From assembly GCA_016195985.1 (NCBI GenBank), contig JACPYP010000016.1, positions 1 through 64,000 on the forward strand: DNA of 64,000 bases. The letters run 5' to 3'. Every line of letters starts with the position of its first letter. Within the stretch, counting starts at the first letter, position 1. Both the position numbers and the translations under genes were made by a program. Under the pieces are notes generated by a model, which saw nothing but the letters and a program-made list of their open reading frames with translations, did not search any database and was not told the DNA's origin. Source of the stretch: Acidobacteriota bacterium. GTDB taxonomy: Bacteria > Acidobacteriota > Holophagae > Holophagales > Holophagaceae. Below, piece by piece: positions 37,927 to 58,639 of this stretch.

Positions 37927-39570
37927 TCAGCGCATCTGGCCGATGGGAATGAGGAAGGATTGGAGGGCCTGGGGCGGGATCTTGACGGAGGCGTGGTAGG
38001 CGCCCACCTGGATGGTGTAGGTGGCGGGGCGAGGGGCTTCGTTGTAGGCGATGAGCACCAGGTGCTTGCCGTCCTTCCTTAGGGCGGCGGTGGCATGGAG
38101 GCCGTGGGACCCTTGCCCCTGCGGAGAAGCCGTCACCTGGACGATCCGGTCTCCCGGCATGAGGTAGCGGCTGAAGTGGGCCATCACGTAATAGAGCGGG
38201 GTGATGTGCGTCTCGCCCGTGCCGGTGTCCACCATGACCGGCGCGGCGCAGAAGTTGTTTACGTGGTTCGGCCCGCCCTGCCGGTCGAGCACGATGTTCC
38301 AGTCGATCCAGCCCGCGAACCCGTGGTTGAGGCCCTCCAAGAGATCCAGGGCATAGCGGTGCACGGGCGCGTACTTGGGGTGGGCCTGCTTTTCCTCGGG
38401 CGGCGCCCAGTAGTACCCCCAGTCCGTGGCCGAGGCCGTCCACCACCAGGCTTCATTTTTCCAGCCGAGGAAATGGCCTTTGGGGGAACTGTCTTCGGTG
38501 CCGATGCCGTCGATGCACCCTTCGGTGTGGAGCAGCGCCTTGCCGGGGAACCGGGTCTGGAGCTGGTCGAGGAGTCCCGTCTGGACGCTGTTGGTGGTGC
38601 TGTACCAGTGCAGGCCCGTGCCCCAGACGTAGGCCGCGGCGGCAGGGTCGCCCAGCACCGTCTCGCTGAAGCGGAGGGCATGGGCGTCGCGGTTGTGGTC
38701 GAACTGGACGATGCGGACATGGGAAAGGCCGTGCTGCTCAAGCTGAGGCCCAAGGTGCAGCTTGATGTAGTCGCGCAGGCCCTCGGCGGTGAACTCCATG
38801 CTCTCCCACTGGCCGCCATTGCCCACTGGCTCGTTTTCCGGCGTGACGCCCCAGATGGACACGCCTTCAGCGGCATAGGCCTGCACGTACTTCACCATGT
38901 ACCGGGCGAAGGTGTCGTAGTGCTCCGGACGCAGGCTTCCTCCCCGGCCATGGCCGTACCAGTCGCGGTTGTCCTTCATCCACGCAGGGGCCGTCCAGGG
39001 GCTGGCCAGCACCTTCAACTGGGGGTTCCTGGCCAGGGCGTCCTTGATCAGGGGGAGCAGGGCGTAGGAGGGATCTTTGGCTCCAGCGAAACCGTTCTTG
39101 TCCGGAGCGATGCTGAAGTGGGCCAGGGCCGAGTCATCGGGTACATCGGCGTATGAAAAACGCCCGGTCACCGAGAAATCGCAGGCGCCAATGGGCGCGC
39201 GGGCGAGGGTGAAGCGCGCGCCATGGGGGCCGAAGAACCGGTCGAGGAGGCTCTCACGGTCCGGTTTCGCCAGGTGGGCCAGGACGAAAGCTGACGACTC
39301 GGTGAGGGCGCCCCCGATGCCTTCCAGGATCTGGAGCTGGCGCGAGGGGTCCACCGCGACGGTGAGGCCGGCTGGAGCGGCGCCCTTGCTGAACTTCAGG
39401 GGTGGCCTCTGCTTGAACCGGTCACCTCCCGCGCTGGTCTGGACGAATCCGGCCAGCCGAGGGCCCAGCAGCTTGGGCAAGCCGGGGGTCCGGGACGGCG
39501 CGCCTTCAGAGTGCAGCCAGGCTGTGGTCAGGCAGGAGAGCGCCAGGGGAACCAACCAGGGAGATGACAT
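37927..39570 (-). CDS. GH30 family glycoside hydrolase, secreted
   Basis: This 547-residue exported enzyme has a signal peptide at about 1-24 and a GH30 (beta/alpha)8 barrel with C-terminal beta sandwich. IEGIGGALTESSAF-like residues at about 82-95, LASPWTAPAWMKDN and GVTPENEP (acid/base Glu247) follow the GH30 order. LLHTEGCIDG carries the nucleophile Glu350. GH30 covers glucosylceramidases and beta-1,6-glucanases. Given GH16 and GH17 nearby, removal of beta-1,6 branches from a beta-1,3-glucan is a reasonable guess. It is last in the leftward arm of the glucan locus. Confidence 0.88.
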   Translation of the reverse strand: MSSPWLVPLALSCLTTAWLHSEGAPSRTPGLPKLLGPRLAGFVQTSAGGDRFKQRPPLKFSKGAAPAGLTVAVDPSRQLQILEGIGGALTESSAFVLAHLAKPDRESLLDRFFGPHGARFTLARAPIGACDFSVTGRFSYADVPDDSALAHFSIAPDKNGFAGAKDPSYALLPLIKDALARNPQLKVLASPWTAPAWMKDNRDWYGHGRGGSLRPEHYDTFARYMVKYVQAYAAEGVSIWGVTPENEPVGNGGQWESMEFTAEGLRDYIKLHLGPQLEQHGLSHVRIVQFDHNRDAHALRFSETVLGDPAAAAYVWGTGLHWYSTTNSVQTGLLDQLQTRFPGKALLHTEGCIDGIGTEDSSPKGHFLGWKNEAWWWTASATDWGYYWAPPEEKQAHPKYAPVHRYALDLLEGLNHGFAGWIDWNIVLDRQGGPNHVNNFCAAPVMVDTGTGETHITPLYYVMAHFSRYLMPGDRIVQVTASPQGQGSHGLHATAALRKDGKHLVLIAYNEAPRPATYTIQVGAYHASVKIPPQALQSFLIPIGQMR

Positions 39571-39616
39571 GGTTCAATCCGTTTTCATGGGGGACATTCC
39601 GAGGGACTGGCCGGCA

Positions 39617-41313: not shown

Positions 41314-42969
41314 CTATTCCTTGATCCGGAGGGGCTCGGCCCAGGCATCCGGGTAGACGTGGCGGTGGGCGTGGATGGTTCTGGAGAATTTGCCGAAACG
41401 GACATCGATTCCGGCGTAGATCGACAGCATCGGAGAGCCTTCCGGAAGGACGTAGACCTCGGACAGGGTCTGCTCCTTCTGCTTCGGATCAATCCTTCGG
41501 GTGCGGGCTTCGGCCCGGTCCCAGCCTTTGTGGTGCGAGAAGGCGCATCGCAGCTCCCCGTCCAGGGCGAAGGTGCCGTCGGCGTTGCGAATGCTCAGTT
41601 CCAGCGGGACTTCCCGCTTGATCGACGGATCGGCGGCGCGGACCTGGAGGTCGAGGGTGGGCCACTGGACGGGGTCCTTGCCCGTGAGGACGATCAGGGT
41701 TTCGGTCTTGAGGAGGCGGCCGTTCGCGCCGTAGGCCTCCATGACGAACTCGCGGTCCTTGAGCCCTTCGTCGCCGAAGGAGAGATTCGCGGAGATGTAG
41801 CCGTGCGCATCCGGCGCCAGCTCCATCAGGATGCGGTCCTGGTGGACCACTCTCAGCTTCCTGACCGCGGGCTGGCAGAAGGCCTCGACAGGGACGGCGT
41901 TCTGGTAGAACTGCCGGTTCTTGGGCGAGGTGATCAAGGCCGTGTTGTACTGCTTCAGGGCATGCCAGGCGGGGCGCGGATGGCCGGTGGAATCCTTCAG
42001 GTCGCGGAAGCCGATGAAGCCGAACCACTCTTCTGCTTCGTCGTCGTGGACGGCGGGCGCGCCGGCCTTCCACCAGCCATCGGCGAAGTAGAAGGGGCAG
42101 AGGCCGGTGGCGCCGGAATCCAGGATGTCCCGGTAGTAGCGGAGCATGGCGTCGGCCTGCTCCTGCAGGCTGTTGCCGCCGTAGAGCCCGCTTCCCTTGC
42201 GGGAAACGGAGCGTCCGAACTCCGTCAGGAGGACGGGCTTGCCCTGGCCGAGGGCATCGGTGATGGCCCGTTGGGACTGGGTGAAGCCGTGGGTGAAGTT
42301 GGAGCCGTCCTTGTAGTCGTAGGCGTTCCTGCCATAGACGTCGAACAGATTCATGTCGAGCCATTCGGTGATGGCGGTGTTTCCTGAGATGGTGACCGGA
42401 ATGCCGGGGTGCAGCTGATGGATGAGATCGGCGGTTCTCGTCCAGAGTTCCCGCGTGGCCTGGGCTCCGACCTTGCGGATGTGCTCTGGCATGGGCTCAT
42501 TCATGATCAGGTAGGTGATCACGCAGTCGTATTTGCGGGAGTAGGACAGGACCCGCCTGACGAGGGCGAGGTCCTCCGCCACCACCTTCGGATCCGAGAA
42601 GTCTTCGTCGGGCTTCAGCCAGATGCCGAAAACGACCTTCAGGCCCGAGGCCTGGACCACTTTCAGTTCGGCCTCGGACATCTGGGACCAGGTGCGGATT
42701 CCGTTGAACCCCGCCTCCTTGATGCGCTTCAGGTCGCTTCGAATCTGCGCGAGATCGCGTGATGCCTCGCCGTAGGGCGCCTCTCCCGGGCGCGCTCCGG
42801 ACTCATAGCCGATGGCGTTGACGAGGAATTTGCGCCCCTTGATGTGGTACCAGCCATCCTTCAACTCGACACCGGCTTTCGGGTGCGGCGGCGGCGCAGG
42901 GACCGCCGCCGGCATCGCGCCCGCCGTCAGCGCCAGGGCGAGAAGAGCACGGATCAGTCGATTTGGCAC
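41314..42969 (-). CDS. secreted TIM-barrel glycoside hydrolase (GH2/GH5-like)
   Basis: This 551-residue exported enzyme has a signal peptide at 1-24. A short lead strand (DGWYHIKGRKFLVNAIGYES) is followed by a (beta/alpha)8 barrel with GFNGIRTWSQ, LIMNEPM (acid/base Glu158) and PVLLTEFGRS (nucleophile Glu250). This is the clan GH-A arrangement seen in the TIM domain of GH2 and in GH5. The C-terminal 200 residues are beta-rich, possibly glycan-binding. The start is a GTG with GGGGGAG upstream. A beta-glycan substrate is inferred from context. A 230-base gap separates it from the lipoprotein gene downstream. Confidence 0.75.
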   Translation of the reverse strand: MPNRLIRALLALALTAGAMPAAVPAPPPHPKAGVELKDGWYHIKGRKFLVNAIGYESGARPGEAPYGEASRDLAQIRSDLKRIKEAGFNGIRTWSQMSEAELKVVQASGLKVVFGIWLKPDEDFSDPKVVAEDLALVRRVLSYSRKYDCVITYLIMNEPMPEHIRKVGAQATRELWTRTADLIHQLHPGIPVTISGNTAITEWLDMNLFDVYGRNAYDYKDGSNFTHGFTQSQRAITDALGQGKPVLLTEFGRSVSRKGSGLYGGNSLQEQADAMLRYYRDILDSGATGLCPFYFADGWWKAGAPAVHDDEAEEWFGFIGFRDLKDSTGHPRPAWHALKQYNTALITSPKNRQFYQNAVPVEAFCQPAVRKLRVVHQDRILMELAPDAHGYISANLSFGDEGLKDREFVMEAYGANGRLLKTETLIVLTGKDPVQWPTLDLQVRAADPSIKREVPLELSIRNADGTFALDGELRCAFSHHKGWDRAEARTRRIDPKQKEQTLSEVYVLPEGSPMLSIYAGIDVRFGKFSRTIHAHRHVYPDAWAEPLRIKE

Positions 42970-43023
42970 AGGGACTCCCCCGGGCTGGGTCGGCCCCAGC
43001 CCGATACAAGGTCGATGGAACGG

Positions 43024-43869
43024 TCAAGAGCGGCGGTAGACGCGAACGTAGTCCACCAGCATCTGCTGGGGGAAGGTGGTGGAGCCGTCCGGAGCCCCGG
43101 GCCAGTTCCCTCCCACCGCCAGATTCAGGATGAGGAAGAAGGGATGGTCGAAGACCCAAAGGGATCCGTTGGCAGGAAGGTCCGCGGGCGTGCGCGTTGC
43201 GAAGAGGGCGCCGTCCACGTAGAAACGCATCTGGGTGCCCTCCCACTCCACGGCGTAGAGGTGGAAGTCGTCGGCGAATTTCCCGGCGGCCAGGGTCTTG
43301 GCCGCAGAGATGCCGTTTCCTCCGCTGTAGCCGGGGCCGTGGATGGTGGCGTGCACCGTGGCGGGTTCCTTGCCGACGTTCTCCATGATGTCGATCTCGC
43401 CGCAGGCGGGCCATCCGTTGGATCCGAGGTCGTTCCCCAGCATCCAGAAGGCGGGCCAGAGCCCTTGTCCGGCCGGGATCTTGATGCGGGCCTCGAAGCG
43501 CCCGCTCGACTGGGCGAAGAGGCCCTGGGTCTTGACGCGGCCGGAGGTGTAGTTCCGGGCGATGCCGTCGGTGCCCGTGTAGGTCTCCTTGACCGCCGTG
43601 ATGACCAGGTTCCCGCCGTGGATCGAGACATTCTGAGGGCGGCCGGTGTAGGTCTGAAGCTCGGCGTTGCCCCATCCGCCGCCGCCGAGATCGAAGGCCC
43701 ATTTGGCGGGATCGGGGGCGCTGCCATCAGCCCCACTGAATTCATCGCTCCAGCTCAGCGCCCAGGCGCCCGTGGGGTTGGCCGGAACGGCTGTCTGAGG
43801 CGTCGAGGATCCGCCGCCGCAGCCCAGGCAGAGGGTGAAGGCGAAGGTGAGGAGGCTGGGCGATCTCAT
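43024..43869 (-). CDS. GH16 family beta-glucanase (laminarinase-like) lipoprotein
   Basis: This 281-residue lipoprotein has its lipid Cys at 17 (CLGCGG). A single GH16 jelly roll runs from about 36 to the end. The strand WSDEFSGADG, GWGNAELQTYT and the active-site strand GEIDIMENVG (nucleophile Glu158, Asp160, acid/base Glu163) are classic for endo-beta-1,3-glucanases. The closing LVDYVRVYRR also matches. It would cut laminarin-type glucan at the cell surface. AAGGAAG precedes the ATG. It lies 117 bases downstream of the regulator gene, with a candidate operator in between. Confidence 0.93.
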   Translation of the reverse strand: MRSPSLLTFAFTLCLGCGGGSSTPQTAVPANPTGAWALSWSDEFSGADGSAPDPAKWAFDLGGGGWGNAELQTYTGRPQNVSIHGGNLVITAVKETYTGTDGIARNYTSGRVKTQGLFAQSSGRFEARIKIPAGQGLWPAFWMLGNDLGSNGWPACGEIDIMENVGKEPATVHATIHGPGYSGGNGISAAKTLAAGKFADDFHLYAVEWEGTQMRFYVDGALFATRTPADLPANGSLWVFDHPFFLILNLAVGGNWPGAPDGSTTFPQQMLVDYVRVYRRS

Positions 43870-43986: not shown

Positions 43987-45165
43987 TTAACGCCCGGAAA
44001 GGCCTGCGCGGTAAAGGGCCGGGGTGGTGCCCGTTTCACGTTTGAAGAAACGGCAGAAATAGGTGGCGGAGTTGAATCCGCATTCGCGGCCCACCTCCTC
44101 GACGGACAAGTTCGAGTTCTCGAGGAGGCGCATGCCCCGGTTGAGCCGGACCCTGAGCACCTCTCCGGCCACGGGTCGCCCGAGGTGCTTCTTGAAGAGG
44201 TTGTCCAGGGTGGAGCGGGAGCAGCCCGTCAACTCGCAGACCTGCTCGACCGAGATGCCACGGCAGGCCCGGTCGCGGATGATCCGGGAGGCGGCGACGA
44301 CCGTGGGGTTCTCGGCCGTGGTGATATCCGTGGACTGGCGGTCGACAACCCGCAGGGGAGGATGGTGGTAGAGCCGGGGCTCGACGGTTTTGCCGTCCAG
44401 AATGCTGATGAGCATTTCCGAAGCCAGCAGGCCGATGCCCTCGGTATCGGGGGCGATGCTCGTCAGGGTGGGACGGCAGAGGCGGCAGAGGATGTCGTCA
44501 TTGTCGACGCCGATGACTGAGATCTCGCCCGGCATGGAGATTCCAAGGTCGCGGCTGGCCGTGATGATCTGCTGGCCCCGGGTGTCGTTGCAGGCCAGGA
44601 TGGCCACCGGCTTCGGAAGCTGGGACAGCCAGACCGCCAGGGCCTGTTCGTATTCAAGGCCCCGCATTTCCCGGAACTGGAGGTTGATCGAGGCGGACAC
44701 CTTGGGCGGCGGCTGGTAGATGCTGATCTCGTGGCCGCGAGCCGCGAAGATGCGCCTGAATGCGTCGGATCGCCGGTCGGAGAAGAAGATGCCGGGGTAT
44801 CCGCAGAAGGCGAAGTTGATGAATCCGGCCTGGGTGAAGAAGTCCGCGGCGAGCTGGGCCACGATCCCTGCATCGGTGTCGATCACCGGCGTGTCCGGAC
44901 AATTGCCTTCTCCCTGCACATCCACGATGGGAACGCCCAGCGCCTTGATCTGGCGTCCCAGGTCCGCATTGGTGACGAACCCGATGATTCCGTCGATGTG
45001 GCCCTTCTTGAGCCACGAGGGGAGTTTCATGAACTCCGCCCGCTCATACGGAAAGATCAGGAGATCCTCCCGTTCGAGCGCATAGGTGGCCACCCCCCTG
45101 CAAATGCCTCGGCTGTAACCACCTGCGGCGGGGACCAGGAGGGCGATGTGGCGGATCGACGGCAT
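43987..45165 (-). CDS. XylR-like transcriptional regulator (LacI-type sensor plus AraC DNA-binding domain)
   Basis: This 392-residue regulator joins a periplasmic-binding-protein sensor to an AraC-family DNA-binding domain. The sensor (about 1-275) starts IALLVPAAGGYSRGICRGV and contains HIDGIIGF, AILACNDTRGQQ and ISVIGVDNDDILC, as in the LacI/XylR sugar sensors. The AraC part (about 290-392) has ISVEQVCELTGCSRSTLDNLFKKHLG and LSVEEVGRECGFNSATYFCRFFKRETG. XylR-type proteins activate sugar genes when the sensor binds a sugar. Placed between two divergent glycan-degrading arms, it probably controls both. The inducer is probably a glucan oligosaccharide (inference). Confidence 0.9.
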   Translation of the reverse strand: MPSIRHIALLVPAAGGYSRGICRGVATYALEREDLLIFPYERAEFMKLPSWLKKGHIDGIIGFVTNADLGRQIKALGVPIVDVQGEGNCPDTPVIDTDAGIVAQLAADFFTQAGFINFAFCGYPGIFFSDRRSDAFRRIFAARGHEISIYQPPPKVSASINLQFREMRGLEYEQALAVWLSQLPKPVAILACNDTRGQQIITASRDLGISMPGEISVIGVDNDDILCRLCRPTLTSIAPDTEGIGLLASEMLISILDGKTVEPRLYHHPPLRVVDRQSTDITTAENPTVVAASRIIRDRACRGISVEQVCELTGCSRSTLDNLFKKHLGRPVAGEVLRVRLNRGMRLLENSNLSVEEVGRECGFNSATYFCRFFKRETGTTPALYRAGLSGR

Positions 45166-45855
45166 GAGAAAGGATCATACTCTTCCCCTATTTCACGGTA
45201 ATTCTGATTTCCTGCGGCCGGGATCGGCTTGCCAAGGTTTCATCGCGGTTTTGGGGGCCCCGGTCCCCTGAGATGCAGGCGGGGGCTCGATCCAGAACGC
45301 AGGGCCGGCGCAGGCCGTCCGGGCTGCGAATCCGGCGGGCGGATTTCCGGGCTGGATGGTGACGAAGCGCACAAAGCTGGAAAGGGCCGCGGATCTGCTG
45401 CCGCTCATTCCGGTCAGCCGCCAGGCTGAATTCGCATAATGCTGTTGATAGGTCGTTAAATCCGGTCAATAGATCTGTCTGGACAAGGAATATCTCGCCA
45501 AAAAAACACATGTGAAAACGAAAAAAGACCATATACAAGCGCAATTTTAGAAATCAGGCTTGCCCAGTCTTCTTTGAACCAAGTCGCCGGGCAGCCCTCA
45601 GGATTCCGATCTCACAGGGCCCCCCGCTCGCAAGCCGGATTGACCCCCTCCTCCTGGGCGGGGACAGATGAATGCCCATCGATGGATCCCTCGCGCCTGA
45701 CCGCGCGGGTGGGCATGGGTGAGCGCAGGTGGACCTAGGCTAGGGTGAGCCAGGGTGAGGTTGTCTGGCCCTGGAACGATTTAAAAATCAATGAAAACAA
45801 TCTTTAGGTTTCAAGAAATCCCATGCGAAAGACCTTCCTAAAAAAGGAGAGAACC
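45166..45855. promoter_or_regulatory. divergent intergenic region of the glucan locus
   Basis: These 690 bases separate the regulator from the rightward arm and hold no convincing gene. Visible features are a CACATGTG palindrome (45507-45514) within an A-rich tract, the AAAAAAGACCAT block at about 45521, and AGGGTGAG twice at 10-base spacing (45742, 45752), with a third GGGTGAG at 45717. Both promoters of the locus and regulator sites are expected here. Base content near 45240-45420 is coding-like, but the frames there match nothing recognisable. Confidence 0.45.
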
Positions 45856-47466
45856 ATGACGGCCCATCGATTCCGAGGCGTATTGGCGCTTCTGGCTGCC
45901 TTCACCATGGCCCTGTTGAGTGGTTGCGGCGGGAAATCCCGTCCCGACACTTCGTCCTCATTCATCTCCATCGCGCCGGTGGCCTGGACCTTGTACCCCG
46001 GCCAGTCAGAGCAGCTCGTGGTGACCCGCCACAATTCAGACGGCTCCAGCTCCGTGGTGAGTTCCGGCGTCGTTTTCGCGGCTTCGGCCGATGCCGTGGC
46101 CTCCGTCAGCGCCACTGGCCTGATGACGGGAGTCAGCGTGGGCACCGGCACCGTGACGGCCACGGTGGGCGACAAGACCGCGGACGCCGTGGTGAAGGTG
46201 ACACCGCTGTTCGCGGGCCCTGTCTTCACCGATGACTACGCGGCGGGAACGACCTTCGTGCCCTTCGGAGGCTCCGTCAATGACCTCGCGGTGGACCGGC
46301 TGGAGCACCACTCCTGGTCGGCCTCGCTGAAGGTGACGGTGCCCGCCGCGGGGTATACGGGCGGCGCTCTGAAGGCCGCCTCGCCCCAGAACATGTCACC
46401 CTACAACGCCGTGACGTTCTGGGCCAAGGCGAGCAAGGCGGTCACGCTTGCGACGGCGGGTTTCGGAGACAGCGCCACAGGCGATGTGCGCTTCAAGGCG
46501 GAGGTGGAGTCCCTCGCGCTCACGACTGAATGGGCCAAGTTTGTCATGCCCATCCCGGTTCCCGGGAAGCTCAGCGAGAATGCGGCCCTCTTCCATTTCG
46601 CGCAGGGCAGTTCAGGATCGGCCTATGCCATCTGGTTCGACGACATCCAGTACGAATACCTGGGAGCCTCGGCCCTTGGCGCGCCCGCCACTGCGGCGGT
46701 AGGCTGGCGCCCGATCAGCGTCGATCTCGGCAAGACCGCGGCGCTTCCCAGCGGGAACGGCAGCGGCAACACCGCGACCTACAGCCTTCCCGCCGTGAAG
46801 CTCGTCAACCTCGGCATCGGCTACTTCGACATCACCTCCGACGCGCCGGCCATCGCCACGCCGAACCTCGACGGCACCGTGAAGGGCTTGGCCTTCGGGG
46901 CCGCCCATCTCACCGCCAAGCTGGGCGGCCTCTCCGCCGGGACCGGCACCGTCACGGTGGCTCCCGCCAGCCCGACATCGGCGCCACCTGCTCCCACGGC
47001 GTCTGCGGGCAACGTGATCTCGCTGCTTTCGAAGGCCTACACGAACAGTCCGGTCGATACCTGGAATGCCAGCTGGGGCGTGGTCGGCGGTTTCTCGGAG
47101 GCGGTCATCGCCGGCGACAACATGAAGAAATACGCGAACCTCGGCTATGCAGGCATCGAGTTCGTCAGCCACCAGATCGACGCGGCGCAGATGGGCTACT
47201 TCCACATCGACATCTGGACGCCGGATATGACGGCCTTCCACGTGAAGCTCGTCGATTTCGGCCCCGACGGCGCCTACGGGGGAGGTGACGACACCGGTGT
47301 GGAGATCTCGGTTCCCGTGTCCGCCCTGCGGCAGTGGCAGAGCATCGACTTGCCGCTGAGCTCGTTCACCGGGCTGAAGCTCAAGAACCAGGCCCAGATC
47401 GTGATCGTGGGCGAGCCTTACGCGAACGGCACGGTCTTCATCGACAACGTCTACTACCACAAGTGA
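45856..47466 (+). CDS. lipoprotein with BIG2-like and putative glycan-binding domains
   Basis: This 536-residue lipoprotein has the lipobox LLSGC (Cys about 24). A BIG2-like domain follows (APVAWTLYPGQSEQLVVTRH through GTGTVTATVGDKTAD). A central jelly-roll-like domain includes FDDIQYEYLG. A second BIG2-like strand set ends TGTVTVAP. The C-terminal domain starts NVISLLSKAYTNSPVDTWNASWG and ends FIDNVYYHK. That last domain is paralogous to the end of the lipoprotein at 39617-41083. Likely a surface glycan-binding protein. ATG 45856 has GGAGAG upstream. The frame's earlier ATG at 45823 is less well placed. A strong hairpin terminator-like stem follows. Confidence 0.72.
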   Translation: MTAHRFRGVLALLAAFTMALLSGCGGKSRPDTSSSFISIAPVAWTLYPGQSEQLVVTRHNSDGSSSVVSSGVVFAASADAVASVSATGLMTGVSVGTGTVTATVGDKTADAVVKVTPLFAGPVFTDDYAAGTTFVPFGGSVNDLAVDRLEHHSWSASLKVTVPAAGYTGGALKAASPQNMSPYNAVTFWAKASKAVTLATAGFGDSATGDVRFKAEVESLALTTEWAKFVMPIPVPGKLSENAALFHFAQGSSGSAYAIWFDDIQYEYLGASALGAPATAAVGWRPISVDLGKTAALPSGNGSGNTATYSLPAVKLVNLGIGYFDITSDAPAIATPNLDGTVKGLAFGAAHLTAKLGGLSAGTGTVTVAPASPTSAPPAPTASAGNVISLLSKAYTNSPVDTWNASWGVVGGFSEAVIAGDNMKKYANLGYAGIEFVSHQIDAAQMGYFHIDIWTPDMTAFHVKLVDFGPDGAYGGGDDTGVEISVPVSALRQWQSIDLPLSSFTGLKLKNQAQIVIVGEPYANGTVFIDNVYYHK

Positions 47467-47661: not shown

Positions 47662-48429
47662 ATGATCAAGGCGGTGAATATGGTTCGATGGGGTCTGGTG
47701 GCATGCCTCTGCGCGTCGCTTTCGCCCATGCGCGCCCAGGACACGGGGTTTTCCAAGGAATTCAAGTTCCGCCTTGGATACGCGCAAAACCCCAAGGACC
47801 ATATGCGGGCTCCGTACACCGGGTTCGGTCTCAACCTGGGCTATGGCATCGGGGTGGGCAGGCTCGGCCTCGAGTTGGGCTACTTCTACAAGACCGGCGA
47901 CACCTACATCACGCGGCCTGACGACTCGGCGCTGGGCGCGGCGCAGCTGCCGATGAATCCGGCCAAGTCCGTGGAGGACAAGCGCAACCAGCTGGCGGGG
48001 TTCTCGGTGCGCACGGCCTTCAGCCGAGAATTGGCTGAGAACTGGCGCTGGCAGGCGGGTCTGCAGTTCGGCGGAACCTTCAAGCACCAGTATGTGGGCG
48101 ATACGCAGAGCCTGCCCTGGGACGCCGGCACGGGCACCGCGGGTTGGCGGGATTTCTATCTGGGGACGCCCACCAAGGGGGGGCTGAATCCCACGCCCTT
48201 CGGCGGCGTGAGCTGGAAGGCGGACAAGGATTCCAGCGTCGAACTGAACCTCGTGCTCCTGAACTACCAGGCGATCGAGTACCACCATTTCGCAGGGACG
48301 GGCACGGTCTACGTCAGCAGCGCCTCGGGCCCCCACTCCTCGGTGGATACGGCCTTCCCCAGCGATTCGCTGGCGAAGAAGAACCGCCTCGTCCCCCACC
48401 TTGAAATCGCCTATGTGTTCCATTTCTAG
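47662..48429 (+). CDS. predicted outer-membrane beta-barrel protein
   Basis: This 255-residue exported protein has a signal peptide ending SPMRAQD. The rest is alternating strands rich in Gly and aromatics (EFKFRLGYAQNP, GFGLNLGYGIGVGRLGLELGYFYKTG, SVELNLVLLNYQAIEYH), ending in EIAYVFHF with a terminal Phe. It could be a small porin or an accessory barrel of the glucan locus. Its start has GGGAGGAA upstream. It lies 196 bases after the lipoprotein and 30 bases before the TonB receptor gene, so it is co-transcribed with the latter. Confidence 0.65.
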   Translation: MIKAVNMVRWGLVACLCASLSPMRAQDTGFSKEFKFRLGYAQNPKDHMRAPYTGFGLNLGYGIGVGRLGLELGYFYKTGDTYITRPDDSALGAAQLPMNPAKSVEDKRNQLAGFSVRTAFSRELAENWRWQAGLQFGGTFKHQYVGDTQSLPWDAGTGTAGWRDFYLGTPTKGGLNPTPFGGVSWKADKDSSVELNLVLLNYQAIEYHHFAGTGTVYVSSASGPHSSVDTAFPSDSLAKKNRLVPHLEIAYVFHF

Positions 48430-48459: not shown

Positions 48460-51400
48460 ATGAACATGCGCAACACACTCCAACTCTCCACCCTCGCGGT
48501 GATGCTGGCCGGTGGTGTGAGCCTGGTCGCGCAGACGACCACCGGAGCTCTGCGTGGCCAAGTGACGGACGAGGCTGGGAAGCCCGTGGCCAATGCCCGC
48601 GTCTCGCTGGAGAGCACAGCCCTCTTCCAGACGCGGGTCATCCTGACCGATGCTGACGGGACCTACCGCGCCCTCCTGCTCCCCGTGGGCAACTACACGA
48701 TCCGCGTGAGCGCCGAAGGGCTGCTCGGCAAGACCGCCAACGATGTCCGCGTGGGCGTGGGTTCCAACCTGGCCATGTCCTTCGTCCTGAAGCCCACGCA
48801 GGCCGCCGCCGCCGTGGTCGAAGTCGTCGGAACCACGGCCGCCGAGGCCAAGACCAGCGACAAGATCTCCGTCAACTACTCCGCCGATCAGCTGCTGAAG
48901 CTGCCCGTCTCCATGCAGGGATTCGATTCCATCACCAACATCGCCCCTGGCGTGGCCGGCTACGGAACAGCCGCCCGGGTCCGCGGGTCGGACACGAACC
49001 AGGTCCTCTACAGCGTCGATGGCATCAACGTGAAGGACGATTCCGGCAAGGCGGCCTCTCTCTACTCCCCCCTGCCTGATTCCATCGAGGATGTGCAAGT
49101 GGTCGCCTCCGGGCTGAACGCCCGCAACGGCCTGGTCAGCGGCGGCCAGGTCAACATGGTGACGAAGAGCGGCTCCAACACCTTCGAAGGCACTGTCCGG
49201 GCCAACATGTCCAGGGCCTCGATGGGCGCCGACTACTACCTCACCAACGCGGCGAACAACAGCAACCTCCTTCGCGAGGACCTCACCCACACGACCGACA
49301 TCACGATGAGCGGCCCCATCGTCAAGGATCGGCTCTGGTTCACGCTGGGGACCCGCTTCACGCCTTCCCAGGCCACGACGGGCCTCCTTGGCTACACGGT
49401 GCTGGGCATCCGGGAAGGGCAGACCTCGCCCATCCCCTGGAACACGGTCCGGACCATGCTCCATCCCATGTCCACCTATGGCCTGAATCCCGGCGTGGAC
49501 GCCGTGGTCAACGCCGGCGCCGGCGCTGGCTACGCCATCGACACGGAACAGGCGGGCACCCAGCTCAGCTCTTCCATCCGCTTCCAGAAGATCGAAGGGA
49601 AGCTGACCGGGATGATCTCGCCGAACCACGCCATGAGCTTCACCTACCTGACGGAGAAGACGACTCAGGGGAACGTCCAGGGGCAGAAGAACGCCGACCC
49701 CTGGGAGGGCAACATTCTCCGCGGCATCGGCGAGATGAAGACCGAAACCAAGGCCTACACGCTGTCCTGGAACGGCATCCTGGCGCCGAACTGGACCATC
49801 GAGGCGCGCACGACCTACGCGGCCATTTCAGCCAACGATGTGCCCAACCCGAACCCTGGCGTGGCCGTCTCGGGCTACTTCTCGACGGGGGATCCGACGC
49901 TGCGGCTCCGGGGCGAGAGCGGCCCCCATTCCTGGCTCGCCGACGAGGGCTACAACTACGGCCCCCTGCTCACCAACATGAGCACCTACATCAACCCGGA
50001 AAAACGGGGGAACCAGACGGCCACCGTGAACGTCAAGACCATCCAGGAATTCCACGGCAACCACGACATCGACATGGGAGGCGAGCGCGTCGCCACCCTC
50101 TACAACTTCGGCCGCACCAAGTTCGGCAACCGCGGCGTGTTCACGGGCGGATGGGAGCGGAATGCCGCCACGGGGCAGTACCTCTATCCCGTCTTCCGCC
50201 GGGGCGCCCAGGGGACCACGCCTTCGGAAATCCTCCAGATCGGGCCTGGCGAGAACCCGTCGGCGAACGGGTGGACCGCCTGGGATTCCATGCCCAACGG
50301 CCTGGGCACGCAGTCGCCCTTTCTCCATTGGGAGGCCATCCGCGGCCCCAGCGCCCACATGGAGCGGTTTTTCGACGACGCGGGCGACTCGAAGAACAGC
50401 ACCACTTCGTTCTGGCTGAACGACAACTGGACCATCAATCCCCAGTGGAATGTCATGGTGGGCGCCCGCATGAACAAGCTGGTCATGGAGGACCAGGGCG
50501 GCAACCACCTGCACGACATGAACATCTTCGAGCCCCGGTTCATGGTCAAGTTCAATCCGGATGGCAACAACAAGGAGGTGTTTTCCTTCTCCGCCGCCAA
50601 GTTGGCTTCGGCCTATTCGGATGCCGTCGCCAACAATTTCCGGGGGAACGCCTGGGAGGTTCGCACGGTCCACCTCTGGAGCGGCGCGGGGCTGAATCCG
50701 GGCATCGCGCAGCCAGGGTTCGACACGGCGGCTTCGGCCTCGGATGCCCCCACGGGCACCTACAACGGCTACACCTACACGGGCCAGAATATGCACGGTG
50801 TCCGCTGGGTGGACTACGCCACGCTGACGGACCCGAGCAACTACGGCCCGGCCTACGACATGCTTGACGCGCGCCAGACCTACCTTTCACCCGGCCTCAA
50901 AGCCCCCTACGCCATTGAGCTGAGCCTCGGTTATCAGCGGAACTACGATTCCGGCTACTTCCGCATCAATGGGACGCGCCGCACCTACAAGGACAACATC
51001 GTCGGCCCGATCCATGATTACGGCATGGCTTCCATGGTGCACATGGTGAGCCCGGCGCCGGGCGATCCGCTGCGCATCTGGAAGCAGGCCACGGTCTGGA
51101 AGAATTCGGAGTTCGACCGGATCTACACCGGGCTTGAAATGGTATTCCAGAAACAGCTGTCCGCCCGGTGGAGCATGATGGGCTCGTACACCTGGGATCA
51201 GTCGACCGGCACCAACGACCTGGACTACTACAGCTACAAGACGCTCCGCGAAAAGCTCCTGACTCCGGCGCAGCAGCGGGCTGCTGTGGGGCAGGGCGTC
51301 CTCAGCAGGAACCAGATCGCCCACCTGTTCCTGACCTACACGCTGCCCGTGGGAAAGGGCAACATCTCCTTCTCCGTCAAGGCGGATACGTGGCAGGGTG

Positions 51401-51885
51401 GCGTCATCCAGGCCCAGGGCTGGACGGACTACCGCACCCTTCCGGGCTTCGCGGCCCTGCAGTTGCCGAGCACGATCGGCGGCGAGCGCGTCACCGACGT
51501 CGACCAGCGGACGGGGAACTGGCAGACCTTCTTCCCCACCTACTATGGCGACATGGGCTCCTTCAAGACCGGCGTGGACTACTACCAGATCGGCGCCAAG
51601 CTCCAGTGGGACATTCCGATCGGGGTGGGCAAGGTGCGGATGATCGGCTACGTGACCTTGGACAACCTTTTCAATCACATGCTCATGACCAACGTGTACG
51701 GCTACTTCACCGGGGACTCGCCGAATCAGACCAACAATGTGGCGCCCGGCAGTGCCATGGCCCTCTTCTACAGCAACCGCTACTACGGTCAGACACCAGG
51801 GGACACCGGAGCCAAGTACGGCGACTACAACATGGGGTACGGCGGCCGCCGCGTCAGCGATTTCAGCTTCGGGTTCAAGTTCTAA
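48460..51885 (+). CDS. Oar-like TonB-dependent receptor with N-terminal carboxypeptidase-like domain
   Basis: This 1141-residue outer-membrane receptor has a signal peptide to about residue 25. A carboxypeptidase-regulatory-like domain at about 28-112 (GALRGQVTDEAGKPVANARVSL) precedes a plug of about 130-240 with VRGSDTNQVLYSVDGINVKD and VVASGLNARNGLVSGGQVNMVTKSG. A 22-stranded barrel ends in the typical terminal Phe (SDFSFGFKF). This is the Oar/Acidobacteria type. No SusD partner is adjacent, so it differs from Bacteroidetes SusC/D pairs. It would import glucan oligosaccharides into the periplasm. GGAG precedes the ATG. Confidence 0.9.
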   Translation: MNMRNTLQLSTLAVMLAGGVSLVAQTTTGALRGQVTDEAGKPVANARVSLESTALFQTRVILTDADGTYRALLLPVGNYTIRVSAEGLLGKTANDVRVGVGSNLAMSFVLKPTQAAAAVVEVVGTTAAEAKTSDKISVNYSADQLLKLPVSMQGFDSITNIAPGVAGYGTAARVRGSDTNQVLYSVDGINVKDDSGKAASLYSPLPDSIEDVQVVASGLNARNGLVSGGQVNMVTKSGSNTFEGTVRANMSRASMGADYYLTNAANNSNLLREDLTHTTDITMSGPIVKDRLWFTLGTRFTPSQATTGLLGYTVLGIREGQTSPIPWNTVRTMLHPMSTYGLNPGVDAVVNAGAGAGYAIDTEQAGTQLSSSIRFQKIEGKLTGMISPNHAMSFTYLTEKTTQGNVQGQKNADPWEGNILRGIGEMKTETKAYTLSWNGILAPNWTIEARTTYAAISANDVPNPNPGVAVSGYFSTGDPTLRLRGESGPHSWLADEGYNYGPLLTNMSTYINPEKRGNQTATVNVKTIQEFHGNHDIDMGGERVATLYNFGRTKFGNRGVFTGGWERNAATGQYLYPVFRRGAQGTTPSEILQIGPGENPSANGWTAWDSMPNGLGTQSPFLHWEAIRGPSAHMERFFDDAGDSKNSTTSFWLNDNWTINPQWNVMVGARMNKLVMEDQGGNHLHDMNIFEPRFMVKFNPDGNNKEVFSFSAAKLASAYSDAVANNFRGNAWEVRTVHLWSGAGLNPGIAQPGFDTAASASDAPTGTYNGYTYTGQNMHGVRWVDYATLTDPSNYGPAYDMLDARQTYLSPGLKAPYAIELSLGYQRNYDSGYFRINGTRRTYKDNIVGPIHDYGMASMVHMVSPAPGDPLRIWKQATVWKNSEFDRIYTGLEMVFQKQLSARWSMMGSYTWDQSTGTNDLDYYSYKTLREKLLTPAQQRAAVGQGVLSRNQIAHLFLTYTLPVGKGNISFSVKADTWQGGVIQAQGWTDYRTLPGFAALQLPSTIGGERVTDVDQRTGNWQTFFPTYYGDMGSFKTGVDYYQIGAKLQWDIPIGVGKVRMIGYVTLDNLFNHMLMTNVYGYFTGDSPNQTNNVAPGSAMALFYSNRYYGQTPGDTGAKYGDYNMGYGGRRVSDFSFGFKF

Positions 51886-51909: not shown

Positions 51910-52497
51910 ATGACTATCGCGCGCACCTGCATGCTAGGCCTCTTGGCCCTGCCCTTGGCCGCCCAATCCACGAATTTCAGCGCCGGAGGAGGCCTCATCC
52001 ATGGGCTGGACAGCTACAAGAAGGCCGTGAACGCCACCACCGGCCTGAACTTGAACGTCGGCTACGACACCTCGGTCTACAAATCGGGCATTCCGGCGCG
52101 CATCAGCCTGGGAGTGGGGCTCATGCCCGGCAAGGAGCAGAACGGCCTGAAGACCTCGCTGACCCTGTTCCAGCTTGCGGGAGATCTCCTGATCCAGACG
52201 GACGTCCAGGGCCTCCAGGGCGTCGTCGGCCTGTCGCTCAACAGCTACTCGGCCAAGTTTTCAGGCTACGAAAGCCCAGCGGCATCCGATGTGGAGCATC
52301 ACTTCCCGTTCCATGATGCCAAAGGCCTGAAGGGCGGTCTCCGTTTTGGGGTGGAATACGCGTTCAATGCGCGCTGGAACGGGCAGGCCCTGATCCAGGC
52401 CACGGAATTGGCCGGCCGGCAGCGCTTCGATCCGCTGATCCGGGAGGGCGGCATCAATCCGGCCTGGCTGGAAATCGGAGTCCGCTACAAATTCTGA
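51910..52497 (+). CDS. predicted outer-membrane beta-barrel protein
   Basis: This 195-residue exported protein has a signal peptide (MLGLLALPLAAQS) and beta strands such as GLNLNVGYDTSV, ARISLGVGLMPG, GGLRFGVEYAFNARW and LEIGVRYKF, the last with a C-terminal Phe. It is shorter than the other barrel of the locus (47662) and not obviously similar beyond composition. GAAGGAG precedes the ATG. It follows the TonB receptor by 24 bases and so belongs to the same transcript. Function is unknown. An accessory porin or assembly factor is possible. Confidence 0.6.
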   Translation: MTIARTCMLGLLALPLAAQSTNFSAGGGLIHGLDSYKKAVNATTGLNLNVGYDTSVYKSGIPARISLGVGLMPGKEQNGLKTSLTLFQLAGDLLIQTDVQGLQGVVGLSLNSYSAKFSGYESPAASDVEHHFPFHDAKGLKGGLRFGVEYAFNARWNGQALIQATELAGRQRFDPLIREGGINPAWLEIGVRYKF

Positions 52498-52618: not shown

Positions 52619-54106
52619 ATGGAAGCACAGGACCCTGGAACGGGGCGAACCTCTGGACGGGTGGAGGGAAGGCTTTCGTTCGGAGAGAAGGCCGGCTACT
52701 CGCTCGGGGACGCGGCCTCCAACTTCTATTGGAAGACCTTCGAGTTCTTCATCATCTTCTTCTACACGGATGTCTTCGGCATCTCAGCGGGCGCGGTCGG
52801 AACCATGATGCTGGTCACCCGCATCATGGACGCGGTGGCGGATCCGATCATGGGCAGCATCGCGGACCGGACGAGGACTCGCTGGGGCCACTTCCGGCCC
52901 TACCTGATCTGGTTTTCCGTTCCGCTGGCGTTCGCGGGAGTGCTGACGTTCACCACGCCCAACCTGGGGGGCGGGGGGAAGCTCGTCTATGCCTACCTGA
53001 CCTACTGCCTCCTGATGCTCCTCTACACCGCGGTGAACATTCCCTACAGCGCCCTGCTGGGCGTGATGACTCCGAATTCAAAGGAGCGGACCTCTCTGGC
53101 CTCCTTCCGCTTCGTGGGAGCGTTCTCCGTGGCCGTTCTGGTGCAGTATTGCACCCCGAGCCTGGCCCAGTGGTTCGGCATGGATGCCTCCCTGCGCGCA
53201 GGCCATCCCTTCCTGGCCCACCCCGTGGCCTGGGTGCGATGGTTCCTCTCCAAGGAGTTCCTCCTCCTGCCCTCGAATCTCATGAAGGGCTGGCAGCTGA
53301 CCCTGGCGCTCTATGGCGTGATCGCCGTGATCCTCTTCCTGATGTGTTTCGCCAGCACCCGCGAACGGGTGGTCCCGCCCGAAAACCAGAACCCCGACTT
53401 GAAGCGGGACATGCGGGACATGTTCACCAGCCGGGCTTTCCTGGTCATGCTGGGCGTCGCCATCATCATGATCAGTTCCTTTGTTCTCAAGGGATCGGTC
53501 TCCGCCTACTACTTCAAGTACTACGTCCACCGGAATGACCTGCTGGGGCCCTTCCTCGTTTCGAACGCGCTGGCCTTCCTGGCGGCGGTGATCATCGCTC
53601 CGTCGATCGCGAAGCGGTTCGACAAGAAGACCCTCTTCATGGGATCCATCGGCGTCGGCGGCCTGATCATCGCCGGTTTCTGGTTCGCAACCCCGGGGGA
53701 TGTGGCGCTCATGTTCGCCTTGCAGATCCTTTCCAGTTTCGTGATCGGATTCAACTCGCCGCTGCTGTGGGCCATGTTCGCGGACACGGCCGACGATTCC
53801 GAGTGGCGGCTGGGCCGCAGGAACACCGGACTCGTCTTCGCCTCCGCCATCTTCGGCACCAAGGTCGGGTTGGCCATCGGGGCCTGGGTGACGGGGTTGC
53901 TGTTGACCGGATTCGGTTACGTGGCGAACGTGGAGCAGACGGCCACGTCCCTGCTCGGAATCAGGCTCTCCATGAGCCTCTTCCCCGCCGCGATGCTGGT
54001 GCTCGCCGCCCTCCTGATGAAGGCCTATCCCCTCGATGACCAGCTGATGGTGCGGATCGAATCCGAGCTGAAGGCCCGGAAGACTGCGAGCCCAGATGAG
54101 CAGTAG
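52619..54106 (+). CDS. GPH-family (MelB-like) sugar:cation symporter
   Basis: This 495-residue inner-membrane protein with about twelve helices belongs to the glycoside-pentoside-hexuronide:cation symporter family of the MFS. It shows EKAGYSLGDAASNFYWKTFEFF, TRIMDAVADPIMGSIADRTRT and RWGHFRPYLIW, the conserved loop between helices 2 and 3. The second half has SSFVIGFNSPLLWAMFADTADDSEW, also typical. It would carry di- or oligosaccharides into the cytoplasm with Na+ or H+. The ATG has GGAGG 8 bases upstream. It sits between outer-membrane import genes and intracellular glucanases. Confidence 0.92.
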   Translation: MEAQDPGTGRTSGRVEGRLSFGEKAGYSLGDAASNFYWKTFEFFIIFFYTDVFGISAGAVGTMMLVTRIMDAVADPIMGSIADRTRTRWGHFRPYLIWFSVPLAFAGVLTFTTPNLGGGGKLVYAYLTYCLLMLLYTAVNIPYSALLGVMTPNSKERTSLASFRFVGAFSVAVLVQYCTPSLAQWFGMDASLRAGHPFLAHPVAWVRWFLSKEFLLLPSNLMKGWQLTLALYGVIAVILFLMCFASTRERVVPPENQNPDLKRDMRDMFTSRAFLVMLGVAIIMISSFVLKGSVSAYYFKYYVHRNDLLGPFLVSNALAFLAAVIIAPSIAKRFDKKTLFMGSIGVGGLIIAGFWFATPGDVALMFALQILSSFVIGFNSPLLWAMFADTADDSEWRLGRRNTGLVFASAIFGTKVGLAIGAWVTGLLLTGFGYVANVEQTATSLLGIRLSMSLFPAAMLVLAALLMKAYPLDDQLMVRIESELKARKTASPDEQ

Positions 54107-55195: not shown

Positions 55196-58100
55196 ATGAA
55201 TGACATTTTTGTTTCTGAGAGCTCATTGGAAAGGACCCTTCCGGAAGTGGACGGATCCTTTGTGGACCTAGGCGGAGAGCGGTTCTACCGAGTCCAGAAC
55301 TACGACGCGATGCCCCCCTTCCTGCTCAGCCTGGTCAGCGCTTCCGACCATTGGCTGTTCCTTTCCAGCAACGGAGCGCTGACTGCGGGACGGAAGGGCC
55401 CCGACCACGCGCTCTTTCCCTACTACACAGATGACCGGATTCACGACAGCCAGCATCAGACGGGCAGCAAGACCATCCTGCGCGTGACCCGCGGCGGCAA
55501 AACCTCCCTGTGGGAACCCTTTTCCCAGCGCTACCAAGGGCTCTACGGGCTGAAGCGGAACCTGTACAAGAGCGTCTACGGGAACAAGGTCCTTTTTGAA
55601 GAGACCAACCGGGAGCTCGATCTCACCTTCCGGTGCGAGTGGATGAACAGTGATCGCTGGGGGTTCGTGCGGCGCGGGGTGCTCGTCAACAACAGCGAAG
55701 AACCCGCCGCCATCGACCTCCTTGACGGCATCCAGAACCTGCTGCCATGCGGATTGGATCGCCGCTTCCAGCTGGAGTACAGCACCCTCGCCGACGGTTA
55801 CAAGCGCACCGAGCTGGTTCCGGAGACCGGGCTGGCCCTGTTCCGCCTCAGCTCAATTCCCGTGGACAAGGCCGAGCCCAGCGAAGCCCTCTGCGTGAAC
55901 CTGGCCTGGTCGACAGGGCTGAGCCAGGCCAAGCGGCTGCTCTCGGCAGGCCAATTCGAGGGCTTCCGGCGCGGCCTTTCCCTGCACCAGGAAAACGACG
56001 TGCGGGGCCAGCGCGGGGCCTACATGTTGAACGCAAGCCTCGAACTGGATTCCCGCGCACAGAAGGAGTGGCTCATCGTGGCGGAGGTCGACCAGGATGC
56101 GTCGAAGGTGCGCGCCTTGAACCGCTGCATCCTCGAAACGCCGGACCTGGGATGCAGGGTTCTGGCCGACGTGGAGCAAGGGACCCGGGACCTGATCCAC
56201 ATCGTGGCTTCTGCGGACGGCCTCCAGCTCACCGGTGATGAGAGCAGCTGCCGCCGGCACTTCTCCAATGTGCTGTTCAACGTCATGCGGGGAGGCCTTC
56301 CCGAGGACGGCTACGTCATCTCCAGGGAGGATCTGCGAGCGTTTCTCGGCCGGGCCAATGCCGAGGTGGCCCGCCGGGAGGACTCTTTCCTCCAGGCGCT
56401 TCCCGACCGGCTCCATCTCGCGGATCTGAAACGGAGGGCGGCCGGGACGGGAGATCCAGATTTGGCGCGCCTCGTCCATGAGTACCTGCCCCTCACGTTC
56501 AGCCGGCGGCATGGGGATCCGAGCCGGCCCTGGAACATCTTCTCCATCCGGCTGAAGGACGCCTCCGGGCACAAGCTCCTCGACTACGAAGGCAACTGGC
56601 GGGACATCTTCCAGAACTGGGAGGCGCTTGGTCATTCCTTCCCCGGGTTCATCGAGAGCATGATCGCCAAGTTCCTGGACTGTTCCACAGCAGATGGCTA
56701 CAACCCCTATCGCATCATGCGGGACGGCTTCGAGTGGGAAACCATTGACCCTGACGATGCCTGGTCCTTCATCGGCTACTGGGGCGATCACCAGGTCATC
56801 TACCTCCTGAAGCTGTTGGAGGCGTCTCATCGTTTCCGCCCGGGACAGCTGTCCGGGATGCTGGGCCAGAAGCTGTTCAGCTATGCCGACGTGCCGTACC
56901 GGATCAAGCCCTATGAGGATCTGATCGCCAGGCCCCGCGACACGATCCGTTTCGATCAGGCCGCCCACCGCGAGACCATGGAACGGGCTGCGCGCCTGGG
57001 TGCCGACGGGAAATCGCTGATGGGCGCCGACGGGCCCGTCCGGTCCAATCTCGCCGAGAAGCTGCTGCTGGTGGCGCTGACCAGGCTCACGAACTTCATT
57101 CCGGAAGGCGGGGTGTGGATGAACACCCAGAGGCCGGAATGGAACGATGCCAACAACGCTCTGGTCGGATACGGGGTGTCCGTGGTGACCCTGTGCTACC
57201 TGCGGCGCTATCTGGCTTTCTGCCGGGACCTGTTCCAGGCTGGAGAAGAGGGGGGCTGGGAAGTCACCTCGGAAATCGGGCAACTGCTGCACTCCGTGGA
57301 GGAGGTGCTGCGGCGCCATGCGGGTTACCTCGGCGCTCCCGTGACACCCGGTGAGCGCAAGCGCATGCTCGATGCTCTCGGCAGGGCCGGGTCGGAGTAC
57401 CGCGCTGCGATCTACTCCCATGGGTTCACGGGAGACACGGCCACGATCACGCCGGAACAGGTGCGGGCCTTCTGTGACCTGGCCCTTCGCCACGTCGACC
57501 ACTCCATCCAGGCAAACCGTCGGGACGACGGGCTCTACCATGCCTACAACCTGATGAAGGTGGAGGGGGATGGCATCGATCTTCGCAACCTCCACCTGAT
57601 GCTGGAAGGGCAGGTGGCCGCCATCAGTTCCGGTGCCCTCACCAGTGAACAGGTGCTGGTCCTGCTCGATGCTCTGCGCGCCAGCCCGCTCTACCGGGTC
57701 GATCAGGGCAGCTACATGCTCTATCCGGATCGCGTCCTTCCGAGGTTCCTGGACAAGAACAATGTGCCTGAGTCCTCCCACTCCAGGTCCGATCTGCTGA
57801 CCGCGATGCTTCGATCGGGAGACGAGAGGATCGTGGCCAGGGACATCGAGGGGATGGTCCACTTCAGCGCGAGCTTCCGCAATGCGGAGCTGCTCCGGGA
57901 GGCGCTGGAGGGCCTTTCGGAGGGCCCGTACCGGGATCTGGTTGCCCGCGAATCCCATCTCATCCTGGGCATTTACGAGCAGGTTTTCGACCACCAGTCG
58001 TTCACGGGACGGTCTGGAAGTTTCTACAAGTACGAAGGCCTGGGGTGCATCTACTGGCACATGGTTTCCAAGCTGCTCCTGGCGGTTGACGAGGCCCGGG

Positions 58101-58639
58101 GCCGCACGGCGCCTGATGACGCGGCCACGCTGTCCCGCCTGAATGCACACTACCAGGCGATCCGGGAGGGCATTGGCGTCCACAAGTCGCCCGCGGACTA
58201 TGGAGCCATCCCGACGGACCCGTACTCCCATACGCCGGGCTTTGCGGGAGCCCAGCAGCCGGGGATGACCGGGCAGGTGAAAGAGGATTGCCTGACGCGC
58301 CTGAGCGAAACAGGCCTCCAGATCACGGCGGGTCGCCTCCGGTTCAGGCCTGAGCTGGTCAGCGAATCAGAATTCCTGTCGAAGCACGGAATCCTGCGGT
58401 ACGTGGATGTCCACGGGCAAGAGGCGTCGCTCCCCCTGGTCCCCGGAAGCCTGGCCTTCACGTTCTGCCAGGTGCCGGTGGTGGTGCGCCGCGAAGGTCC
58501 GCCGCGCATCCTCGTTGTGCGCCGGGATGGGGCCGTCAAGGAGACCCTCGGCCTTGAGCTGGACGTTCCTGCCAGCACGGCCCTGTTCGGGCGCGACGGC
58601 TCCATCCGGTCGCTGGAGGTCTTCCTCGGCCGAGGATGA
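55196..58639 (+). CDS. large GH94-clan glycoside phosphorylase, probable beta-1,3-glucan phosphorylase
   Basis: This 1147-residue cytoplasmic protein has the size and layout of the large GH94-related phosphorylases (GH149/GH161): an N-terminal beta-sandwich (about 1-330), a helical linker, an (alpha/alpha)6 barrel (about 400-960) and a C-terminal beta domain. A barrel segment reads SFIGYWGDHQVIYLLKLLE near 523-541, where the catalytic Asp would lie (D about 530). Phosphorolysis of beta-1,3-glucan oligosaccharides to glucose-1-phosphate is inferred from GH16 and GH17 neighbours. Exact family number is uncertain. ATG 55196 lies 2 bases past the GH17 stop. A TTG at 55190 is an alternative. Confidence 0.72.
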   Translation: MNDIFVSESSLERTLPEVDGSFVDLGGERFYRVQNYDAMPPFLLSLVSASDHWLFLSSNGALTAGRKGPDHALFPYYTDDRIHDSQHQTGSKTILRVTRGGKTSLWEPFSQRYQGLYGLKRNLYKSVYGNKVLFEETNRELDLTFRCEWMNSDRWGFVRRGVLVNNSEEPAAIDLLDGIQNLLPCGLDRRFQLEYSTLADGYKRTELVPETGLALFRLSSIPVDKAEPSEALCVNLAWSTGLSQAKRLLSAGQFEGFRRGLSLHQENDVRGQRGAYMLNASLELDSRAQKEWLIVAEVDQDASKVRALNRCILETPDLGCRVLADVEQGTRDLIHIVASADGLQLTGDESSCRRHFSNVLFNVMRGGLPEDGYVISREDLRAFLGRANAEVARREDSFLQALPDRLHLADLKRRAAGTGDPDLARLVHEYLPLTFSRRHGDPSRPWNIFSIRLKDASGHKLLDYEGNWRDIFQNWEALGHSFPGFIESMIAKFLDCSTADGYNPYRIMRDGFEWETIDPDDAWSFIGYWGDHQVIYLLKLLEASHRFRPGQLSGMLGQKLFSYADVPYRIKPYEDLIARPRDTIRFDQAAHRETMERAARLGADGKSLMGADGPVRSNLAEKLLLVALTRLTNFIPEGGVWMNTQRPEWNDANNALVGYGVSVVTLCYLRRYLAFCRDLFQAGEEGGWEVTSEIGQLLHSVEEVLRRHAGYLGAPVTPGERKRMLDALGRAGSEYRAAIYSHGFTGDTATITPEQVRAFCDLALRHVDHSIQANRRDDGLYHAYNLMKVEGDGIDLRNLHLMLEGQVAAISSGALTSEQVLVLLDALRASPLYRVDQGSYMLYPDRVLPRFLDKNNVPESSHSRSDLLTAMLRSGDERIVARDIEGMVHFSASFRNAELLREALEGLSEGPYRDLVARESHLILGIYEQVFDHQSFTGRSGSFYKYEGLGCIYWHMVSKLLLAVDEARGRTAPDDAATLSRLNAHYQAIREGIGVHKSPADYGAIPTDPYSHTPGFAGAQQPGMTGQVKEDCLTRLSETGLQITAGRLRFRPELVSESEFLSKHGILRYVDVHGQEASLPLVPGSLAFTFCQVPVVVRREGPPRILVVRRDGAVKETLGLELDVPASTALFGRDGSIRSLEVFLGRG

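Follow-up and report, generated by a model that had tools for sequence, protein, structure and literature searches.

The locus occupies positions 37927-58639 of a 64,000-nt stretch of DNA, here termed the window, and is formed by two divergent arms bordered by a methyltransferase gene (36742-37518) on one side and an NHL-repeat gene (59406-60806) on the other. The source genome (4.26 Mb, 98% complete) shares its genus with Geothrix sp. SG200 (L004, G004). The minus arm encodes GH30, lipoprotein A, GH157, GH16 and a XylR-like regulator; the plus arm encodes lipoprotein B, BarA, an Oar-type TonB receptor, BarB, a GPH symporter, GH17 and GH149. The genes named in an original prediction for this DNA were all found in their predicted places, and the features are as follows:

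37927-39570, minus: GH30 with an N-terminal signal-like segment, likely a beta-1,6-glucosidase (debranching); Pfam GH30 5e-68, 41% identity to the GH30 of Formosa locus L055
39617-41083, minus: lipoprotein A, Big_12 and two C-terminal domains, candidate glycan-binding protein; Pfam Big_12, match to the lipoprotein B model, lipobox LVGC
41314-42969, minus: GH157, likely endo-beta-1,3-glucanase; 465 bits to LaGH157 over its full length, E250 equivalent to E224 of LaGH157
43024-43869, minus: GH16 laminarinase, probable lipoprotein; PF00722 2.2e-25, solved laminarinases down to 2e-81
43987-45165, minus: XylR-like regulator, sugar-binding domain and AraC-type HTH; Peripla_BP_3, HTH_18
45521-45577, plus: promoter-region element between the divergent arms, a candidate site for the regulator; kept in 7 loci, 16-base core
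45823-47466, plus: lipoprotein B, a candidate surface glycan-binding protein with Big_2 and carbohydrate-binding-like beta-sandwich domains; relatives in GH149 loci of Bacteroidota, all-beta model, best fold match SGBP-B 7kwb
47662-48429, plus: BarA, a candidate small barrel of the outer membrane and the receptor's upstream partner; genomic linkage, no Pfam, NCBIfam or PDB match
48460-51885, plus: Oar-type TonB-dependent receptor, CarboxypepD_reg and plug domains; Pfam, cassette-receptor clade (support 0.92)
51910-52497, plus: BarB, a small barrel of the outer membrane and the receptor's downstream partner; OMP_b-brl 4.6e-8, weak OmpA likeness, linkage
52619-54106, plus: GPH-family sugar:cation symporter (PF13347) of the inner membrane; MFS_2 5e-97, TIGR00792 386 bits
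54222-55193, plus: GH17 without signal peptide, likely a cytoplasmic glucanase or transglycosylase; PF00332, matches to 6fcg and 4wtp
55196-58639, plus: GH149 beta-1,3-glucan phosphorylase, likely cytoplasmic; NF058639 1567 bits, 6hq6 1213 bits

The start codon of GH17 was picked from an alignment of orthologues. Two candidate frames were rejected: 42803-43702 (minus), a frame that has no Pfam match and is not the GH16 gene (GH16 being 43024-43869), and 58733-59359 (plus), opposite which the reverse frame scores better. The Oar-type TonB receptor, the GPH symporter and the two lipoproteins are present as predicted (Pfam, TIGR00792 and lipoboxes), and the regulator described as XylR-like does combine Peripla_BP_3 with HTH_18. 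The predicted absence of SusD also held, with no match to SusD families among the genes of the locus and none to SusD_RagB (PF07980) in the genome.

Beta-1,3-glucan, a polysaccharide found in algae and fungi, had been predicted as the substrate class, which is supported by the presence of GH16, GH17, GH30, GH149 and GH157 together in one locus; characterized members of these five families act on beta-1,3- or beta-1,6-glucan. The phosphorylase had been placed in the GH94 clan, a fair description, GH149 and GH94 having a clan in common in CAZy; it is assigned to GH149 by a curated model (NF058639, 1567 bits against a cut-off of 1150, residues 19-1145) and matches structure 6hq6 over its full length with 1213 bits. 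The product of GH149 chemistry is alpha-glucose-1-phosphate. From this family chemistry, it is plausible that glucose enters glycolysis here with no ATP spent on that glucose; two genes of the genome carry the phosphomutase domain PF02878, which is found in other phosphomutases too. A synthetic role, in which GH149 would build beta-1,3-glucan from glucose-1-phosphate, is very improbable: although the reaction is reversible in vitro (PMC5827456), the gene closes an operon-like arm that also encodes a symporter and a glucanase, and in other loci GH149 accompanies degradative enzymes.

The protein previously labeled as GH2/GH5-like proved to be a GH157, matching over its full length (residues 31-546, 465 bits, E 2.7e-138) the solved LaGH157 of Labilibaculum antarcticum, which according to PDB titles has laminari-oligosaccharides bound. 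The catalytic-site glutamate is kept: E224, the residue mutated in LaGH157, has its counterpart in E250, which does not vary among seven orthologues. The AlphaFold model of the protein is poor (pLDDT 51), so it is the sequence match that supports the identity, the family name coming from the PDB title; the protein is likely an endo-beta-1,3-glucanase. Bacteroidota loci yielded distant "GH157" matches (21-29%) that were rejected as orthologues; these proteins have about 1050 residues, and the one scanned has a GH2 TIM-barrel domain.

Whether the natural polymer is algal laminarin or a fungal beta-1,3/1,6-glucan (or curdlan) is finely balanced, and the fungal alternative has a little under an even chance. 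GH157 and GH30_3 degrade fungal beta-glucan in Bacteroides cellulosilyticus (PMC10229575), and the GH30 of this locus matches the model of the BT3312 endo-1,6-beta-glucanase, albeit far under the cut-off (202 against 700 bits). The enzyme set nevertheless fits marine laminarin loci too, the GH30 being 41% identical to that of Formosa, and laminarin and fungal glucan are not separable by sequence alone.

Lipoproteins A and B, whose lipoboxes were read from the sequence, share their last C-terminal domain, as the model of lipoprotein B matches lipoprotein A; the latter had no match in a PDB sequence search. Residues 131-547 of lipoprotein B are related to the product of the gene preceding GH16 in the Formosa locus, and further relatives occur in many GH149 loci of Bacteroidota. 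The predicted model of lipoprotein B is all beta, with SGBP-B of B. thetaiotaomicron (7kwb) as its best fold match, followed by matches that include CBM22, CBM56, CBM30, CBM4 and CBM11 structures. Identity to 7kwb is 13% and the TM-score 0.2-0.3, low whole-chain values being expected because the domain arrangement differs. A lipoprotein signal and a multi-domain beta-sandwich, the features of a surface glycan-binding protein, are thus both found, the fold being taken from the model of lipoprotein B alone, and the two proteins look like candidate surface glycan-binding proteins of a locus having no SusD.

Seven loci retain, between their arms, a conserved element of about 57 bp (45521 in this DNA) whose ends look like inverted repeats of one another. 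Further matches to the first 16 bases of the element lie upstream of units in the variant loci described below; this core has one match in the window against 0.03 expected, and the longer pattern of the element occurs once in the genome. Our guess is that the XylR-like protein binds there.

Gene set and order are kept in six relatives from two genera (G004, G021, G024, G065, G066 and G070; the GH30 end of G024 falls outside the covered stretch); in three of them (G065, G066 and G070) lipoprotein A belongs to the plus arm. Because set and order are conserved in this way, the locus is a real unit. A match to GH149 was found in 16 of the 77 genomes of the family. Six members of the same genus (G018, G038, G040, G042, G044 and G045) carry a variant locus that keeps the GPH symporter and GH149, and also the regulator where that is covered, and that holds GH81 (in all but the truncated G044) and a GH17 lipoprotein. 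In these loci, G044 included, the place of the receptor cassette is taken by an outer-membrane-like protein, unrelated and about 450 residues long, that has no match in Pfam or NCBIfam; an example is L104:11160-15052 (G040), with equivalents in G018, G038, G042 and G045. This protein may possibly provide a second, TonB-independent route. Since these relatives have no cassette there, the cassette is not essential for the use of beta-glucan. Among 80 GH149 loci fetched, GH17 is present in 63, GH16 in 51, GH30 in 48 and a match to lipoprotein B in 39. Two contigs labeled as Brockarchaeota and Demequina MAGs (L003 and L005) encode GH149 proteins 57-59% identical to the one described here, nearer than any Bacteroidota copy; mis-binning or transfer is the probable source of these genes.

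The original prediction had mentioned two barrels in passing; both are present and are the most unusual part of the locus. BarA has no match in PDB, Pfam, NCBIfam or PHROGs, while BarB shows a general match to OMP_b-brl (4.6e-8) and a weak likeness to OmpA. Searches of the source genome with profiles of both revealed pairs of paralogues spaced about 3.3 kb apart, each gap being filled by one Oar-type receptor. There are eight such cassettes, with BarA matches and cassette receptors corresponding one to one; in one of them (C5) a small downstream gene is present that does not match the BarB profile. The other 11 Oar-type receptors of this genome adjoin no BarA or BarB match, such that adjacency is seen for 8/8 cassette receptors versus 0/11 others (chance, 1 in 75,582), and the 20 genes flanking these non-cassette receptors include no glycosidase.

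Loci L169-L188 had been collected through their BarA matches, and linkage was therefore tested independently on 16 whole genomes. In these, 31 of 31 BarA genes immediately precede a receptor gene of the same orientation, with a gap of 19-121 bp in all but one. Receptor matches above 500 bits are accompanied by BarA in 29 of 29 instances and those below in three of 38 (two divergent cassettes and one fragment), a dividing line that is descriptive only, the receptor profile having been trained on cassette receptors. BarB lies downstream of the receptor in 31 of 33 instances, pairwise distances of the three cassette proteins correlate over 31 cassettes (r 0.84-0.89; maximum in 2000 permutations, 0.31), and the receptors of cassettes group together as a clade apart from 14 other receptors (support 0.92), these three results including five orthologous beta-glucan loci for which cassette flags were set by hand from synteny. 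One-to-one linkage, fixed order and co-divergence suggest a functional tie of BarA and BarB to the receptor.

These properties bear on a simpler explanation, that the two barrels are small porins or structural proteins in their own right, merely co-transcribed with a receptor that imports oligosaccharides by itself. The match of BarB to OMP_b-brl is indeed general, and the CUT loci of Xanthomonas import sugars through a TonB receptor without SusD (PMC1790865). Yet a general porin would have no need of a receptor-specific copy, and linkage, order and co-divergence are maintained over eight paralogous cassettes and 16 genomes; we consider this explanation unlikely. A bolder reading, less likely than not, is that the Oar-type receptor and its two barrels would make up a single three-barrel TonB-dependent importer complex in the outer membrane, the counterpart of SusCD in this acidobacterial family, which would have been duplicated in association with different enzyme sets.

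Glycoside hydrolases adjoin six of the eight cassettes of this genome, in neighborhoods comprising GH2 with MFS; GH92 and GH43 with MFS; GH42 with SSF; GH127 and an arabinofuranosidase with SSF and arabinose isomerase; a GH109-like protein with ROK; and the beta-glucan locus itself. The remaining two (C16 and C5) have no sugar genes beside them, and in relatives two cassettes lie beside genes for secreted peptidases, M4 and met-zincin (L171:6701-14008 and L178:6957-14475). On account of C16, C5, L171 and L178, the cassette is not purely for glycans: near peptidases the module may serve peptides too, or may act in secretion like Oar of Myxococcus xanthus. As a general account, export, with the receptor releasing enzymes in the manner of that Oar and BarA and BarB assisting, is improbable. 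Secretion of the PopC protease in M. xanthus requires Oar (PMC11658791), and the peptidase neighbors of L171 and L178 would suit such a role; but cassettes also adjoin inner-membrane sugar transporters and genes of cytoplasmic sugar catabolism (GPH at this locus, SSF with arabinose isomerase, SSF with GH42, and MFS with GH2 or GH92), and Oar-type extensions are frequent on receptors of unknown role as well.

One cassette occupies a conserved site beside housekeeping genes, with no sugar genes, in five genomes (L136, L179, L183, L186 and L188); judged from the start of their sequences, the neighbors are likely asparaginase and seryl-tRNA synthetase. With no more than nine candidates scored per genome, BarA was found in at least 12 of 297 Acidobacteriota genomes, 11 of them in this family (Holophagaceae) and one elsewhere (G167). 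The latter, from another family of the phylum, supplies the sole cassette outside Holophagaceae among the matches listed (L187, on a 6.6-kb contig), for which transfer, mis-binning or an older origin are possible explanations.

Taken as a whole, the locus is best read as a regulated pathway for uptake and breakdown of branched beta-1,3-glucan that includes the cassette, a reading to which we assign a probability of roughly 0.75. We infer its exact substrate, locations, transport, glycan binding and regulation, and any physical association between the receptor and the two barrels, as follows. At the surface, lipoproteins A and B would hold the polymer while GH16 and GH157 cut its beta-1,3 backbone; beta-1,6-linked glucose would be taken off by GH30, either at the surface or in the periplasm. 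The TonB-dependent receptor, together with BarA and BarB, would import oligosaccharides across the outer membrane in the place of SusCD, and the GPH symporter would carry them into the cytoplasm. There GH17 may trim or rearrange them and GH149 would phosphorolyze them to alpha-glucose-1-phosphate, which would reach glycolysis via phosphoglucomutase; the XylR-like regulator would sense a breakdown product and act at the 45521 element. We propose that the cassette serves as a lineage-specific outer-membrane uptake module in place of SusCD.

Several known systems resemble parts of this arrangement. Type II GH149 clusters of Alteromonadales contain a TonB receptor, GH16, a cytoplasmic GH17, a PF13347 transporter and GH149, and are SusD-less (Kuhaudomlarp et al. 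2018, PMC5827456). The present locus has the same gene set and likewise no SusD, but a XylR-like regulator where those clusters have a histidine kinase and response regulator, and in addition GH157, GH30, SGBP-like lipoproteins and BarA and BarB around the receptor. The laminarin PULs of Formosa are induced by laminarin (PMC6246565); in the Hel1_33_131 locus (L055), GH16, GH149, GH17, GH30, an MFS transporter and a lipoprotein B relative are clustered as they are here, although there a GH17 is joined to the MFS protein in one fusion, and orthologues of the receptor, BarA and BarB were not seen in that stretch. The original prediction had set the phosphorylase route against Bacteroidetes PULs; GH149 is present, but it does not separate the two, GH149 genes of Bacteroidetes being mostly located in PULs or CAZyme clusters (PMC5827456). 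Because type II GH149 clusters and Formosa laminarin loci are precedents, neither the lack of SusD nor the phosphorylase route is new, and as a beta-glucan locus this one is a variant of a published kind, with enzymes of known kinds. No description of such a locus was found in literature on Geothrix with laminarin or on acidobacterial laminarin PULs, in a search that subscription literature mostly lay outside.

CUT loci, the broader precedent for doing without SusD, similarly place a TonB receptor beside a degradative enzyme, an inner-membrane transporter and a sugar regulator, with another receptor family and other substrates, and the available part of the report (PMC1790865) does not mention a BarA-BarB pair. 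The SusC/SusD pair that defines PULs of Bacteroidota is not present, the receptor being Oar-type. Lipoprotein B shares with SGBP-B (7kwb) a multi-domain beta-sandwich in a lipoprotein but has another domain arrangement. Like SusCD, the cassette joins a TonB receptor to a constant partner and recurs within one genome next to enzymes for different glycans; the partner of SusC, however, is a SusD-type lipoprotein, whereas those of the cassette receptor are two small barrels in a genome from which SusD_RagB is absent. In the literature searched, no TonB-dependent transporter with barrel partners was found, and the new part seems to be this pair of small barrels in a recurring BarA-receptor-BarB unit. 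A group outside Bacteroidota would here have arrived at the same beta-glucan pathway with other machinery in its outer membrane, and the BarA-receptor-BarB signature marks out one clade, often located by sugar genes, among the numerous Oar-type receptors of these genomes whose assignment is otherwise difficult. Should the barrels indeed be subunits of the transporter, the cassette would represent a TonB-dependent transporter with barrel partners.
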